Below, in pieces: positions 5,446 to 57,631 of a stretch of DNA of 64,000 nt (positions within the stretch are counted from its first letter, which is position 1; the number at the start of each line of letters is the position of its first letter). The position numbers and the translations under genes are program-made. Source of the stretch: a virus. The stretch lies in the IMG/VR virus record IMGVR_UViG_3300050026_000261, positions 1 to 64,000 of that record; one strand, written 5' to 3'. The notes beneath the pieces are model-generated. The model made no database searches. It saw only the letters and a list, made by a program, of their open reading frames with translations, and had not been told where the DNA came from.

Positions 5446-5495
5446 TTGGCGAAACGAGTCAGTAATTTAGATTAAAAACACTATGGGATGTGTTT
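5446..5495 (+). promoter_or_regulatory. Promoter-like region and RBS hairpin for HNH gene
   Basis: TTGGCG (5446-5451) and TAGATT (5468-5473) are spaced 16 bases. AAACAC (5476-5481) pairs with GTGTTT (5490-5495), presenting a TATGGGAT loop that contains the ribosome site. The same hairpin design precedes the cargo genes at 10357 and 34038. GCCAAAA at 5423 and TTTTGGC near 5444 also form an inverted repeat. Confidence 0.45.
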
Positions 5496-5972
5496 CGGAC
5501 GAAGAATAGTTATGAGATCAGCGGCTTAATGGTAGTTATTAGATTACGAAGGCATAACGGTGAGAGAGTAGAAACTTTTATAGATATTAGTGATCTGGAG
5601 CGAACTAATGAGTTCCCTGGCTGGTGGCGACTAGGTTCAAATGGATATGTTGTAGGTCAACTGTCGGTTGACGAACCTATCATACTATTACATCGTTGGA
5701 TTATGAACCCACCTGGCAACATGGAAATAGATCATATCAATCATTGTAGACTGGATAATCGGCGACAAACTAATTTGAGAACTGTTAATCGCAAGAAAAA
5801 TGCACAAAATAGCAAAAAAAGATGGAATCAAGTGCAATCAAGGCTTAAGCCATTAGTAGGTTCGCTATTCAAAGCATCTGTAGCTTTATCTAGTGAGAAT
5901 GAAAATGGAGTTTGGCCACCACCTAGCTTTAAAAGACAAGGAAAACGCAAAAGAGAAGGGCTTATAGCTTAA
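5490..5972 (+). CDS. HNH homing endonuclease-like protein
   Basis: Protein of about 160 residues with a clear phage HNH motif: LHRWIMNPPG then IDHINHCRLDNRRQTNLR at about 67-97, giving the His, Asn and DNR residues of the nuclease core. The usual C-terminal AP2 DNA-binding domain is missing and is replaced by a basic, low-complexity tail (KRQGKRKRE), so it may be a degraded or variant homing endonuclease. It is inserted between the late regulator and the terminase, with its own promoter-like sequence and a terminator. The start is uncertain: GTG 5490 or ATG 5529. Confidence 0.8.
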   Translation: MFRTKNSYEISGLMVVIRLRRHNGERVETFIDISDLERTNEFPGWWRLGSNGYVVGQLSVDEPIILLHRWIMNPPGNMEIDHINHCRLDNRRQTNLRTVNRKKNAQNSKKRWNQVQSRLKPLVGSLFKASVALSSENENGVWPPPSFKRQGKRKREGLIA

Positions 5973-10356: not shown

Positions 10357-11040
10357 ATGGGTAAGATTATTGATTTAACAGGGCAGAAATTTGATAAGCT
10401 TTTGGTAAAACAATTTCATGGAATATCTTTGAGCAATCGGCAGGCGACATGGCTCTGCCAGTGTGCCTGTGGTAGAGAAGTAATTAGAAACTCTACTTGC
10501 CTAAGGAATAAAAGTATTACCAAAAACTGTGGGAAGCCCGGTTGTGGTAATACTTATTTTGAGGAAAACGGTCATCTTGTTGGGTTGACATTTAAAGGAG
10601 AAAGATATTTATTAGATAAAGAGGATTATTCTAAAATATGTAACCTTACTTGGATACGCGATCTTGCAAGAGGGTATATTTATGCCAGAAAAACGCACTC
10701 TAAAACGGCTATATATATGCATCATTTAATCATAGAAGCTCCTAATGGCTGCATAGATCATATAAATTTAGACAAGTCGGACAACAGGAAAGATAATCTT
10801 AGGATATGCACTATTCAACAAAATAGTTTTAATCGAGGAAAACACAAAGGGAAGCGTTTGAGTATTTATAAAGGAGTAACACAAAACGCAAAAAGGAATA
10901 AATATATTGCTCAAATTCGTAAGGAAGGTAAGATTTATAGATTAGGTTATTTTGAAACAGAAGAAGAGGCTGCTTTTGCATATAACAAAGCAGCGATAGA
11001 GATGTTTGGAGAGTTTGCGAAACTTAATGATATTGAATAA
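10357..11040 (+). CDS. Homing endonuclease: zinc ribbon, HNH and AP2 domains
   Basis: Protein of 227 residues. Residues 5-60 have the LTGQKFDKLLV lead followed by CQCACG and a CG..CG pair, a zinc-ribbon DNA-binding module. HNH core at about 125-155: MHHLIIEAPNGCIDHINLDKSDNRKDNLRI contains the catalytic His, Asn and DNR elements. Residues 170-227 form an AP2 domain (YKGVTQN, YFETEEEAAFAYNKAA, FGEFAKLN). Free-standing homing endonucleases of this build spread between phage genomes by cutting alleles that lack them. It sits as a cassette between the portal and Mu-F-like genes. ATG start behind AGGAGG in a hairpin loop. Confidence 0.92.
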   Translation: MGKIIDLTGQKFDKLLVKQFHGISLSNRQATWLCQCACGREVIRNSTCLRNKSITKNCGKPGCGNTYFEENGHLVGLTFKGERYLLDKEDYSKICNLTWIRDLARGYIYARKTHSKTAIYMHHLIIEAPNGCIDHINLDKSDNRKDNLRICTIQQNSFNRGKHKGKRLSIYKGVTQNAKRNKYIAQIRKEGKIYRLGYFETEEEAAFAYNKAAIEMFGEFAKLNDIE

Positions 11041-37837: not shown

Positions 37838-37849
37838 ATAGAGGTGGAT

Positions 37850-38599
37850 ATGACTCAATCAGATATCACAGATGCCTGCGTCTCCATCGGTGAGGCCAGA
37901 ACCCAAACAGGCGTCCTCAAAACATTAATGCTCTCGTTCGCAGCGGGGGCATTTATCGCGTTCGGCGGCCTATTGATGGCCGTCGTGGTGTCCGGCCTTC
38001 CTTCGATGGGTACGCTGAGCAAATTGATTGGCGGTCTGCTGTTCCCGGTGGGGCTGGTGTTGGTCGTGGTGACAGGCGCGGATCTGTTCACCGGGGATTG
38101 TTTATACGCCACTGTCTCATCTAGGTGGGCTGCTGGCAGGTTAGGCATGATCAGCATCAGCAGGGTCATGTCTCTCTCCTACCTAGGCAACCTTATCGGT
38201 GCTCTATTCGTCGCCTACCTGGCGATAGCATCAGGGATTCTCACGCCAGAGGCTCAGAATTGGCTCAGGGCGGCAGCAGTGGCAAAAGTCCACCTATCCT
38301 TCGTCCAGGCATTTACCAGGGGGATCGGGTGCAACATCCTCGTTTGCCTGGCGCTATGGTTGGCGCTCTCTGCGGATAGCCTGACGGGCAAAATCCTGGG
38401 CATATGGATTTGCGTTGCGGCTTTCGTGGCTATGGGGATGGAGCACTCGATTGCGAATATGTTTTTCGTTCCGCTGGGAATTCTCTGCGGGGCGCATGTG
38501 AGTTGGAGTCAGTTCTGTCTGGCCAACGAGCTGCCGGTGACGCTGGGGAACATTGCCGGCGGCGCATTGGTGGGGTTGCTGATGCTGCTCCAGAAATAA
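37850..38599 (+). CDS. Formate/nitrite (FNT) family channel
   Basis: A multi-pass membrane protein of 249 residues with FNT hallmarks in order: FAAGAFIAFGGLL, VTGADLFTGDCLY with the pore Thr, LSYLGNLIGALFVAYL, FTRGIGCNILVCLALWLA, AMGMEHSIANMFFVPLGI containing the central pore His, and LPVTLGNIAGGALVG near the C-terminus. Pentamers of this family pass formate, nitrite, hydrosulfide or lactate. It lies between the fibre gene and the holin-like genes, in the same direction and tightly packed. ATG 37850 behind GAGGTGG. All conserved pore residues are present, so it is likely functional. A holin-like role is an alternative. Confidence 0.92.
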   Translation: MTQSDITDACVSIGEARTQTGVLKTLMLSFAAGAFIAFGGLLMAVVVSGLPSMGTLSKLIGGLLFPVGLVLVVVTGADLFTGDCLYATVSSRWAAGRLGMISISRVMSLSYLGNLIGALFVAYLAIASGILTPEAQNWLRAAAVAKVHLSFVQAFTRGIGCNILVCLALWLALSADSLTGKILGIWICVAAFVAMGMEHSIANMFFVPLGILCGAHVSWSQFCLANELPVTLGNIAGGALVGLLMLLQK

Positions 38600-43134: not shown

Positions 43135-43533
43135 ATGGGACAAGAATATAGAAGAACGCAAACTACAGTATCATTAATCAAATATCATTTTGTTTTCTGC
43201 CCCCGATACAGGCGCAAAGCATTAGTGGGAGAGGCCGAGAAGCGATTTAGGGAAATCCTGAAAAATGTTTGCGAGGAGAATGCATTCATCATCGTAGCCC
43301 AAGAAGTAATGCCTGACCACGTCCACTTATTTCTCAATACCTTGCCGTCGATCAGCCCCTCGGACATTATGGCAAAAGTGAAGGGAGTGACATCAAGAGA
43401 GTTACGGCGGGAATTCAAGCACCTGCAGCACTTGCCAAGCCTATGGACACGTTCATTCTTCTGCTCTACGGCAGGAAACGTATCCAGCGAAACCGTAGCC
43501 CGGTACATTGCTGAACAAAAGAAAAGGGGGTGA
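43135..43533 (+). CDS. tnpA: IS200-type Y1 transposase TnpA
   Basis: Protein of 132 residues with the HUH motif in VMPDHVHLFLNTLP near 60 and a C-terminal SSETVARYIAEQ helix bearing the catalytic Tyr. It cuts and joins single-stranded DNA at the TTAC and TCAA borders guided by end hairpins. Full length with no visible damage. Confidence 0.95.
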   Translation: MGQEYRRTQTTVSLIKYHFVFCPRYRRKALVGEAEKRFREILKNVCEENAFIIVAQEVMPDHVHLFLNTLPSISPSDIMAKVKGVTSRELRREFKHLQHLPSLWTRSFFCSTAGNVSSETVARYIAEQKKRG

Positions 43534-43537
43534 TAAG

Positions 43538-44635
43538 GTGCAAATCACAGTACAAGCTAAAATCACTCCAAACCAAGAGCAGCGTTATTTGCTAGATTCA
43601 ACCATGAAAGAATACATCAGTCTCGTCAATCGGATCGTTTCAGAATACATAATCGCTGAAAAGGACATGAAGTATACAACAAGAGACCTGGTTGCCACAC
43701 TACCAAGCGCAGTCAAAAACCAGGCCATTCAGGACGCTAAAAGTGTTTTCAAGAAATACACCAAGAACCTCAAGGCAAATACCAAAAGGCCGCCCGACCA
43801 ACAGAAAAAGATTAAAATACCCATTCTCAAAAAGCCCGTTGCGATTTGGAACAACCAGAACTATAACGTCAAAGGTGATATAGTCTCATTCCCGGTTATC
43901 ATCGAAGAAAAGTCAAAGCGCATCGAACTCAAGGTGATCATGACCGAATATCAAAAACAGCTTTTAGGTAACAGATTGGGCAGCCTCAGAATCACCCAAA
44001 AGTCCGGCAAATACATGGCGCAAATCGCTGTACAGGCGAAAGAGATTCCGGCAGCAGCCGGGCAGCCAATGGGCGTGGACCTTGGACTCAAAATCCCGGC
44101 TGTAGCCGTTGTAGATGGTGGTAAAACCAGATTTTTCGGCAATGGCCGTCAAAACAAATTCGTTAAACGTAAACACCGGTCAGCTAGACGCAAGCTAGGC
44201 AAACTCAAAAAATTAACGGCCATCCGAAGGCGTGACAACAAGGAACAGCGCTGGATGAAAGATACTGACCACAAAATCAGTCGCCAAATCATCAATTATG
44301 CCAAAGACAACCATGTGGCGACCATTCGCCTGGAAAAACTTTCTGGCATCCGCCAGACGGCAAGAAAAAGCCGTAAAAACGAAAAGAACCTGCATAGCTG
44401 GTCGTTCTATCGGTTGGCCCAGTACATCGAATACAAAGCAATTCTGGCAGGAATGAAGATAGAATATGTTGACCCGAAATATACCAGCCAGAAATGCCCT
44501 GTTTGCGGCGAACGGAATAAGGCCAACGATAGAATGTACAAATGTAGTTGCGGATTTAAAGGCCACCGGGATATTGTGGGAGCCTTGAATATCATATCTG
44601 CAACTGTGATAGATGGTAACAGTCTATCAGCCTAG
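43538..44635 (+). CDS. tnpB: RNA-guided nuclease TnpB
   Basis: Protein of 365 residues. The RuvC-like core is complete: GVDLGLKIPAVAV with the first Asp, TIRLEKLSGI with the Glu and GHRDIVGALN with the last Asp. The zinc finger has CPVCG then CSCG. GTG 43538 follows AGGGGGTGAT and gives the standard MQITVQAKITP start; the frame is open upstream but inside tnpA. It uses the omega RNA to cut donor joints next to the TTAC motif and so promotes retention. Confidence 0.93.
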   Translation: MQITVQAKITPNQEQRYLLDSTMKEYISLVNRIVSEYIIAEKDMKYTTRDLVATLPSAVKNQAIQDAKSVFKKYTKNLKANTKRPPDQQKKIKIPILKKPVAIWNNQNYNVKGDIVSFPVIIEEKSKRIELKVIMTEYQKQLLGNRLGSLRITQKSGKYMAQIAVQAKEIPAAAGQPMGVDLGLKIPAVAVVDGGKTRFFGNGRQNKFVKRKHRSARRKLGKLKKLTAIRRRDNKEQRWMKDTDHKISRQIINYAKDNHVATIRLEKLSGIRQTARKSRKNEKNLHSWSFYRLAQYIEYKAILAGMKIEYVDPKYTSQKCPVCGERNKANDRMYKCSCGFKGHRDIVGALNIISATVIDGNSLSA

Positions 44636-55129: not shown

Positions 55130-57631
55130 ATGGAGAAACTGAATATTTATACATCGAACCGCATAATTATGCATATGCCCAAGGGCGCTCTCTCACAAAG
55201 CACCAACGATTTCCTATCCGTGGTCAAAAGTGAGAACACGATCCCCAACCCCGCCTACCAGGAGGCGCAGAAACGGGGCCGGTGGCTAGGCAGAATCTCA
55301 TCTGTGATCCCATTGGTGCAGATCGAGCCGCACGGCATATCGTTGCCCAGGGGCTATGCTTATAGGCTGCTGCAGTTGGCAAAGCATTTCGGGGTGGAGT
55401 ATTGCTTTGAGGATGTGCGCAGGGAATTGCCCATGGTGCTGTACCGGTCAAAAATTCAGCTCAGACCATATCAGAAAATAGCGGTCGAGGGGATGCTAAA
55501 GGGCACCCAGGGCGTTTTGGTCAGCCCCGCCGGCAGCGGAAAAACCGAATCCATGCTTGAGGTAATCGCCCGGGTGGGGCAACCTGCTATCTGGCTCACC
55601 CATACCAAGGAACTGGCAGAACAGGCGGCGGCCAGGGCAGAGTCTCGCTTAGGTATCCTCCGGAGCGAGATCGGCATGATCGGTGATGGAACTTACCGTG
55701 TAGGGGAAATGCTGACCATTGGCATCTTGCAGACACTCTGCCGGATGGATCTGAAAAAACTGGCCGGGTTGTTTGGTTTATTGATGCTAGATGAATGCTT
55801 CCCAGCAGGAACGCTGATTGATGGAAAACCCATTGAATCTATCAAACTAGGAAATGTTGTTACTGCTTGGGATGAGCGCAATCAGCAAGTAACTCAAGGC
55901 ATTGTTGCTGAAACGCTTAAAAGAAGAGCCCCATCTTTGTTGGTTCGCGTTCATGCTAGCGGCAAAAATGTAGTCTGCACCCCAAACCATCCATTCTTAA
56001 CGAAAGATGGCTGGAGAGAAGCAATTGGCCTAAATCTAGGAGAGGAGTTGCTTTATGAAGCCTGTTCTGAAGGCATGCCCGAAGTGTGGCAAAGTAAGGA
56101 TGACAAGCCCGGAATCAGAATTATGCAAAAAATGCAGGGGAGAAACAACTCGATACAACAACAGAGTGTTTGCTCTTTGCAGTTGTTGCAAAAGAATTGT
56201 TGTAATTTCGGAAAAAGTGAAAAGAGATCAGTTTCGGGATACGGGGCTAATTTATTGTTCGGAACAATGCAAGAAAGCATACCTGCACGAAGTCAATTCC
56301 AGGACCATGACCAAAACCAACAAGAAGTACGGTTCGGCCATGATGGCCAACAGAGATCCACATTTGACACCGGAAACGAGGGCCAAACTGAGTGCTTCCC
56401 TCAAAGCCAGGGGATGGAAGCCACCAATTCAGGGCGGCAATGGTCGAGGGCTAACAGTGCCGCAAGCCAGTCTTGCCAGCGTCTTGAACTGGCCAACAGA
56501 ACTAATAGTTCCAACGAAGATAAAGAGACCCAGCAGATATCCGACCTGTTACAAGATCGACATTGCCAATTCAGGGTTGAGGATCGGAATAGAGATCGAT
56601 GGCCACTCTCATTCTGCCCGCAAACTCCTCGATCAGAAGAAGGATACCTTCCTGTCTGGCTTAGGGTGGACAATATTGAGATTCTCCAACCAGGTAGTGA
56701 CGGAACATTTGGAGGATTGTGTCCAGATGGTCATGTCTACAATTTCGAAGTTGCAGACTACCACACCTACACAGCAAACGGGTTCATAGTTCACAACTGT
56801 GCGCATTGCCCAGCCGAAACCTATGCAGCAGTGGTTGACCAGTTCCCCGCCCGGTGGCGCTATGGATGCTCCGCGCAAATTGTCCGGTCAGATGGTTTAG
56901 AAGTGCTTACTGAGCGTTTCATCGGCCCCATTCTGCACACTGTACCAAGGACAGCAGTTGAACTGTCGGGTGGCGTCATAGTACCCCGGCTAAGAACCAT
57001 AAAAACTGAAACAGTTTCAGAAAGTTTCAGCCAGCATGTGAAAAGAACAGAAGAATGGGAACGCCTTTGCGGGGAAGCCCGGTTAAACAATACCAGAGAG
57101 CCAAGGAAGCCGCAAATGAACTACAACGCAATTATGAGCGACGTAATCAACGACTCTGAACGCAATCACCTGATCATCCAGACATTGATCCAAGAGTGCC
57201 CGGGACATTTTTCACTAGTTTTAAGCGAAAGAGTCGATCATTGCCAAGGGTTGAACGCTATTTTACAACAGACATTTCCTGAATTAAGATCGGACATTGT
57301 TCATGGCAAACTAGCGGCCAAGAAGCGGGAAACAGTAATTGAAAGTATGAAAAGTGGAAATCTGGATGTACTGTTCGCCGTTGACCTGGCAAAAGAGGGG
57401 CTGGACATCCCCCGGCTGGACAGGCTGTTCTTGGTGGCCGGGGGGAACAACGAAGCCGAGACTGAGCAGAAGGTTGGACGGATACAAAGAGGATTTAGCG
57501 GAAAGAGAGATGCGTTTGTGTTTGATTTTGTGGATGAATGTATCCCGGTGCTGGCAGCGCAGTTTTGGACGCGGAAGAAGGTGTACCAGAGGTTAGGGAT
57601 GATCGGGAATAGGGAAAGGCAGGTGGGGTAG
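55130..57631 (+). CDS. SF2 DExH helicase interrupted by an intein
   Basis: Precursor of 833 residues. Extein parts: RPYQKIAVEGMLKG (Q motif) and SPAGSGKTESMLEVI (motif I) near 130-140, IWLTHTKELAEQAAA, the DECAH box split after DE, GCSAQIV, and motif VI EQKVGRIQRGFSGK near 800. Cys 223 starts an intein of 334 residues (55796-56797); removal joins LMLDE to CAHCPAET and gives 499 residues. Likely phage replication or recombination helicase. ATG 55130 behind GGGGAAAATGG, after the Spo0E-like gene. Confidence 0.93.
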   Translation: MEKLNIYTSNRIIMHMPKGALSQSTNDFLSVVKSENTIPNPAYQEAQKRGRWLGRISSVIPLVQIEPHGISLPRGYAYRLLQLAKHFGVEYCFEDVRRELPMVLYRSKIQLRPYQKIAVEGMLKGTQGVLVSPAGSGKTESMLEVIARVGQPAIWLTHTKELAEQAAARAESRLGILRSEIGMIGDGTYRVGEMLTIGILQTLCRMDLKKLAGLFGLLMLDECFPAGTLIDGKPIESIKLGNVVTAWDERNQQVTQGIVAETLKRRAPSLLVRVHASGKNVVCTPNHPFLTKDGWREAIGLNLGEELLYEACSEGMPEVWQSKDDKPGIRIMQKMQGRNNSIQQQSVCSLQLLQKNCCNFGKSEKRSVSGYGANLLFGTMQESIPARSQFQDHDQNQQEVRFGHDGQQRSTFDTGNEGQTECFPQSQGMEATNSGRQWSRANSAASQSCQRLELANRTNSSNEDKETQQISDLLQDRHCQFRVEDRNRDRWPLSFCPQTPRSEEGYLPVWLRVDNIEILQPGSDGTFGGLCPDGHVYNFEVADYHTYTANGFIVHNCAHCPAETYAAVVDQFPARWRYGCSAQIVRSDGLEVLTERFIGPILHTVPRTAVELSGGVIVPRLRTIKTETVSESFSQHVKRTEEWERLCGEARLNNTREPRKPQMNYNAIMSDVINDSERNHLIIQTLIQECPGHFSLVLSERVDHCQGLNAILQQTFPELRSDIVHGKLAAKKRETVIESMKSGNLDVLFAVDLAKEGLDIPRLDRLFLVAGGNNEAETEQKVGRIQRGFSGKRDAFVFDFVDECIPVLAAQFWTRKKVYQRLGMIGNRERQVG
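55796..56797 (+). other. In-frame intein in the DExH motif
   Basis: Splicing blocks: CFPAGTLIDGKPIESIKLG (N-terminal Cys), VVCTPNHPFLTKDGW (TxxH), VYNFEVADYHTYTANGFIVHN followed by Cys (C-terminal His-Asn/Cys). The central 245 residues in this frame are Gln/Ser/Arg-rich without any domain, because another gene (56055-56789) is encoded there in a different frame. The frame has no stop codon. Confidence 0.92.
56055..56789 (+). CDS. EDxHD/Vsr-like homing endonuclease overlapping the intein
   Basis: Protein of 244 residues in the +1 frame relative to the helicase, starting ATG 56055 behind AGGAGAGGAG. N-terminus: CPKCGKVRM, LCKKC, CSCCK and YCSEQCKKAY zinc motifs; LTPETRAKLSASLKARGW is NUMOD3-like. 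Residues about 160-225 hold the nuclease core: YKIDIANSGLRIGIEIDGHSHSA, DQKKDTFLSGLGWTILRFSNQ (the EDxHD family of phage homing endonucleases). Its stop lies in the codons of the intein's C-terminal splicing block. This is a complete gene nested in another coding frame. Confidence 0.9.
   Translation: MKPVLKACPKCGKVRMTSPESELCKKCRGETTRYNNRVFALCSCCKRIVVISEKVKRDQFRDTGLIYCSEQCKKAYLHEVNSRTMTKTNKKYGSAMMANRDPHLTPETRAKLSASLKARGWKPPIQGGNGRGLTVPQASLASVLNWPTELIVPTKIKRPSRYPTCYKIDIANSGLRIGIEIDGHSHSARKLLDQKKDTFLSGLGWTILRFSNQVVTEHLEDCVQMVMSTISKLQTTTPTQQTGS

Follow-up and report, generated by a model that had tools for sequence, protein, structure and literature searches.

Canonical bifunctional inteins combine a Hint splicing domain with a nuclease coded between its two halves, insert into catalytic motifs of their host proteins and occur as filled and empty alleles. 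Fractured genes with split inteins, in which an EDxHD-type nuclease gene lies between the intein halves, were reportedly described by Dassa et al. in 2009. Here we analyzed an intein in a helicase gene of the virus record IMGVR_UViG_3300050026_000261 from IMG/VR, located in the first 64,000 nucleotides of this 68.7-kb record (positions 1 to 64,000; the whole stretch is referred to as the window). The window intein and its relatives resemble canonical bifunctional inteins in all of the above respects, but the nuclease is encoded in another frame as a separate protein, and its gene overlaps the codons of the C-terminal intein half. The position of an EDxHD-type nuclease between the intein halves is shared with fractured genes, and three split relatives found here have their layout, whereas in the window and in most relatives host gene and intein are unbroken and form a single open reading frame (ORF). 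The gp41-1 fractured genes contain a GIY-YIG nuclease without such an overprint.

The closest precedent for an out-of-frame nuclease is the ShiLan domain, an insertion without splicing which contains an out-of-frame HNH nuclease and was proposed to be retained in the host protein (Arsenault, Gosselin, Gogarten 2025; PMC11855218). As at the locus studied here, the host frame is left open, and ShiLan is mobile between phages (PMC11855218), as the overprinted inteins appear to be. By contrast, the ShiLan nuclease is of the HNH type and there is neither a splicing domain nor a detectable ribosome site, whereas the window combines a Hint domain with a DUF559/EDxHD nuclease that has a ribosome site. 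In the literature searched, ShiLan-type insertions were the only out-of-frame precedents, and we came across no account of a nuclease overprinted in an intact intein, of which Dassa 2009 or Gorbalenya 1998 may make a passing mention. Known to date are in-frame nucleases in inteins, EDxHD nucleases in fractured genes and the out-of-frame HNH of ShiLan; a nuclease overprinted inside an intact intein would be new. We assign a probability of about 0.88 to the reading of the locus as a mobile intein with its homing nuclease encoded in an overlapping frame rather than fused.

The helicase precursor, its intein and the nested nuclease gene

The ORF at 55130-57631 (frame 2) encodes 833 amino acids, is free of stops from end to end and constitutes an SF2 helicase precursor according to matches to PF04851, PF00271 and the PHROG 16 DNA helicase. 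The intein interrupts the helicase directly after the Walker B sequence LLMLDE, and a Cys immediately follows its final ANGFIVHN. The features of the locus are as follows.

55130..55795, plus strand: N-extein of the SF2 helicase, with Walker A (...GSGKT), ending in LLMLDE of Walker B (PF04851/PF00270, sequence)
55796..56797, plus strand: intein of 334 amino acids, CFPAGT...FIVHN (PF07591, PF14890, TIGR01443; Hint fold by AlphaFold and Foldseek)
55796..56062, plus strand: N-terminal half of the splicing domain, residues 1-89, with C1 and T62-x-x-H65 (invariant residues; predicted local distance difference test score, pLDDT, 94-98)
56038..56047, plus strand: AGGAGAGGAG, Shine-Dalgarno sequence for the nested gene (duplex energy of -8.6 kcal/mol; enriched across the family, p=1.5e-12)
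56055..56789, plus strand: nested nuclease gene, 244 amino acids, DUF559/EDxHD type, frame +1 relative to the intein (pLDDT 88.5; nearest folds 3hrl and 3r3p)
56066..56645, plus strand: filler, the disordered intein-frame reading of the nuclease gene (pLDDT 41-56; omega 1.42 in the intein frame and 0.23 in the nuclease frame)
56592..56633, plus strand: nuclease catalytic residues E180, D182, H186 and D193 (invariant or almost so in 69 relatives)
56648..56789, plus strand: two-frame overlap, in which C-intein RVDNIEI, VYNFEV and some of the final block lie over GWTILRF...STI and the tail of the nuclease
56774..56797, plus strand: C-terminal intein block ANGFIVHN, with the nuclease stop TAG (56787-56789) inside its Ile-Val codons
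56798..57631, plus strand: C-extein of the helicase, first residue the +1 Cys (PF00271)

An initial sequence-only reading had described the intein as intact and open throughout, and this description stands. All of the splicing residues are there (C1, T62-x-x-H65, H333-N334 and the +1 Cys), and among the Hint/intein models run on the precursor PF07591 scored over its cut-off and PF14890 slightly below its own, with TIGR01443 (intein_Cterm) reaching 28.5 bits on the intein against a cut-off of 15.6. AlphaFold modeled intein residues 1-90 with a pLDDT of 94-98 and most of residues 285-334 above 90, and in Foldseek searches the top PDB matches of these Hint-fold ends were inteins and bacterial intein-like domains. 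Residues 91-280 are disordered in the model (pLDDT 41-56). A scan with the entire 833-residue precursor as query gave no match, that is, no close relative in the collection scanned. The window was without any Rfam match, including a group I intron RNA structure, and we therefore rejected a group I intron.

The nested ORF (frame 0) is complete and lies entirely within the intein, its frame starting one base later than that of the intein. It was the second element of the initial reading, and its identification as an EDxHD nuclease is upheld by a DUF559 match (E=2e-10), by the conserved E-D-x-H-D residues and by a predicted Vsr-like/DUF559 fold (mean pLDDT 88.5). The closest solved structures were 3hrl (DUF559; Foldseek probability 1.00) and 3r3p (catalytic domain of I-Bth0305I; 0.97), I-Bth0305I having been described as an EDxHD enzyme (PMC3943268). 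Both share the catalytic-domain fold and the E-D-x-H-D residues with the window nuclease, but the 3r3p chain is named as a mobile-intron protein and its sequence similarity to the window nuclease is weak (E=0.07). Plasmid matches to the nuclease were partial and mainly comprised a short DUF559 domain.

The proposed ribosome site of the nuclease was found as AGGAGAGGAG, which falls in codons of the N-intein at a suitable spacing ahead of the ATG at 56055. Across 79 clusters of related loci (see below), the best Shine-Dalgarno energy had a median of -7.0 kcal/mol at nuclease-frame starts compared to -3.15 kcal/mol in the other frames (p=1.5e-12). Because of this enrichment, it is likely that the nuclease is made by internal initiation at the nested start. 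We thus propose that the long frame would be translated into a helicase precursor from which the Hint domain, its ends linked by the disordered loop, would excise itself at DE^C to restore the helicase. The nuclease would be made separately from the ATG at 56055, directed by the Shine-Dalgarno sequence within the N-intein codons, and would cut the intein-less Walker B site in a relative's helicase gene, upon which repair would copy the whole intein into the cut gene.

A conserved register and selection in two frames

To survey relatives, we scanned IMG/VR and bacterial genomes, searched phage records, and grouped the loci into clusters at 90% nuclease identity. The first survey gave 105 nested loci including the window, corresponding to 84 clusters, in 80 of which both intein halves were visible. 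Two later scans with more diverse alignments returned nested arrangements at 68 of 74 and 52 of 77 loci, partly on contigs already found; after the first of these, the clusters numbered 125 when non-nested configurations are counted in. At all 105 loci the nuclease occupies one and the same relative frame, the intein frame has no stops, and the third frame has between 2 and 33. In all 80 two-half clusters the intein begins with Cys and ends with HN followed by Cys or Ser, and T-x-x-H is also conserved. The insertion site is Walker B DE^C in 75 of the 80 and approximately two residues further downstream in the remainder. Host genes are mainly diverse helicases, with a clamp loader (PF13177) at locus L323 and a protein resembling a clamp loader by eye at L013.

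In 78 of 80 clusters, the register of the two frames does not differ by a single base, the Val codon of the intein RV strand beginning one base ahead of the codon for an invariant Trp of the nuclease. This identity argues for a single origin of the overlap. The nuclease stop is TAG in 66 of 80 clusters and lies 8-65 bases upstream of the intein end in 79 of 80. In Mantel tests, the distances among inteins, nucleases and exteins were modestly correlated.

In the window, 245 codons overlying the nuclease are open in the intein frame, of which some 190 belong to the disordered filler and some 45 lie over functional sequence of the C-intein. The initial estimate that such a stretch would lack a stop by chance, about 8e-6, is close to our refined value: with the nuclease protein held fixed and codon usage taken from the phage itself, the expectation is 13 stops and P(no stop) is 10^-6.5, so that we rejected chance openness of the intein frame. 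Stops in the intein frame can arise solely from a T-ending nuclease codon before AAN, AGN or GAN, where a change of T to C is always synonymous. At pyrimidine-ending nuclease codons in these contexts, T and C occur in a ratio of 0:1132 over the 80 clusters, compared to 107:30 in five free-standing relatives and 2772:1914 elsewhere in the nuclease codons of the family.

To compare rates per frame, as the sequence-only reading had suggested, we used four-class counts over nine independent pairs. In the filler, the ratio of nonsynonymous to synonymous rates (omega) was 0.23 for the nuclease (95% interval 0.15-0.38) and 1.42 for the intein frame (1.08-1.76). In the C-terminal overlap, comprising the last ~130 bases, it was 0.38 (0.15-0.72) and 0.45 (0.26-0.58), respectively. 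Based on these values, the filler is a passenger in the intein frame, selected solely for the absence of stops, and the C-terminal overlap is evidently a stretch that serves two proteins. The intein-frame omega above 1 probably reflects constraint that differs between positions 1 and 2 of the nuclease codons rather than positive selection. The proposal that both frames are under selection accordingly holds for stop avoidance and for the C-terminal overlap, but in the filler the intein frame is only kept stop-free (omega ~1.4).

Filled and empty alleles and related configurations

Outside an insert that consists of exactly the 302-residue intein, the helicases of Corynebacterium phages phi673 and phi674 share 99.1% identity. 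Vibrio phages CP-T1 and vB_VchM-138 form a second filled/empty pair, in which the insert is exactly a 353-residue intein. Since these allele pairs differ by exactly the intein, the unit of intein and nuclease appears to be mobile. In both pairs, the +1 Cys of the filled allele corresponds to Val or Ala in the empty one, and the codon differs at all three bases. Seven of the 16 downstream single-nucleotide polymorphisms of phi673 lie at most 78 bases from the insert, as expected from a co-conversion tract. The phi673 genome paper reported a putative intein in the helicase (PMC6132909), and its text, searched for intein, helicase and gp43, yielded no mention of a nuclease within it (PMC6132909). 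Among Vibrio phages, one site is found in three states: empty, occupied by the complete overprinted intein, or holding a ~150-residue intein that lacks the nuclease. As a separate observation, the helicase ORF of Vibrio phage PS65A.1 (L151, 601-3732) has a mini-intein without a homing endonuclease gene at Walker B and a larger insert at Walker A that resembles another intein.

Several relatives have other configurations. In the split relatives L242, L267 and L280/L296, the N-intein, nuclease and C-intein are three ORFs, and the filler frame contains 15-26 stops. Their C-intein ORF still overlaps the nuclease in an unchanged frame relation, and that of L242 could start at an ATG shortly before the RV strand. 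The clamp-loader gene at L323 (3289-5430) contains an overprinted intein with exactly one TAG in the filler, which may possibly be a first step to the split form, a pseudogene or an error. Free-standing nuclease relatives (L009, L010, L045 and L101) are located directly upstream of an intein-less helicase gene, in some cases overlapping its start, an arrangement suggestive of homing at this gene independently of an intein. In the relatives L339-L355 the nuclease shares its frame with the intein halves, as in L339, where a DUF559/Vsr nuclease is found in a Mu F-like head protein gene. In a weakly supported nuclease tree rooted on this in-frame group, the split forms constitute one clade and the free-standing forms are scattered.

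Alternative explanations and significance

A mobile intein with an overprinted homing nuclease is the reading that we favor on the basis of the two frames with their conserved register, of the selection acting on each frame, of the enriched ribosome sites and of the precise filled and empty alleles. Four points weigh against it. PDB matches of the nuclease are partial and cover the catalytic domain only, approximately one-third of the clusters are without a strong Shine-Dalgarno match, and the window phage is without a close empty-allele relative among phage records. Moreover, protein splicing, cutting at the Walker B site and gene conversion are deduced from sequence, and homing is likewise a prediction.

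In a single record, two compensating sequencing or assembly errors could break an ordinary in-frame fusion of intein and nuclease into two apparent frames, and in-frame relatives (L339-L355) exist. Yet arrangement and register recur across 84 clusters, some of them with phage isolates that were sequenced separately, and the codon pattern and omegas need a real two-frame history, so that the probability of this artefact, which the sequence-only reading had named as a finding that would refute it, is negligible; many independent loci and isolated phages exclude it. It is also very improbable that splicing was lost and the open frame is retained as a linker, for which the ShiLan insertion provides the precedent of an open frame with a hidden nuclease and no splicing (PMC11855218). 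C1, T-x-x-H, HN and the +1 Cys/Ser are conserved in the 80 two-half clusters, the splicing-domain fold is predicted confidently, and at Walker B an unspliced insert should kill the ATPase. The nuclease frame is +1 to the intein at their junction and is reachable by one shift, such that programmed ribosomal frameshifting from the helicase frame could yield a fusion of N-extein, N-intein and nuclease. We consider this improbable in comparison with internal initiation given the strong enrichment of Shine-Dalgarno sequences at nuclease-frame starts (median -7.0 versus -3.15 kcal/mol) and the retention of a separate nuclease ORF in the split relatives.

The overprinted form could finally be a transient step toward a fractured gene, since L242, L267 and L280 are split with the overlap preserved and the intein of L323 has a single stop. 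This is unlikely, because the joined form is dominant and spans deeply diverged nucleases, split forms are confined to one clade, and stop avoidance is under active maintenance. Of the earlier proposal of an intermediate between ordinary and fractured inteins, the connection to split forms in the same register is retained, but not the intermediate status of a joined form that is common and long-lived. Judged from these comparisons, the joined overprinted form is a stable, common and long-lived architecture of mobile inteins and not a fleeting intermediate. We lean toward a broader view, in which overprinted inteins would be a distinct common class beside full-length, mini- and split inteins, with one origin and with the nuclease catalytic tail and a C-intein strand locked in a base-exact overlap. 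This class would have spread among phages of many bacteria, hidden from annotation, and fractured split inteins and free-standing nucleases would derive from it, or it from them.

Splicing and homing, which usually reside in one polypeptide, may thus travel as two overlapping genes that stay together over deep divergence. The locus is a clean natural example of overprinting: the price of a second frame consists mainly in avoiding stops, and every stop here is removable by a synonymous T-to-C change. It also ties ordinary inteins concretely to the fractured split inteins that are valued as tools in protein engineering, and indicates where others can be sought. "Helicase" annotations in many phages conceal a nuclease gene, as standard annotation misses the two-in-one arrangement. 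The existing filled/empty phage pairs, including a laboratory pair, make the mechanism directly testable.

Elsewhere on the plus strand, the window contains a formate/nitrite transporter gene at 37844-38599 (PF01226, 7e-71), perhaps an auxiliary metabolic gene, and at 43135-44635 an IS200/IS605-type pair of overlapping genes for a Y1 transposase (PF01797) and TnpB (PF07282, PF01385). Two ORFs for HNH nucleases at 5490-5972 and 10357-11040 (PF13392, the second also with AP2) are possible free-standing homing nucleases.
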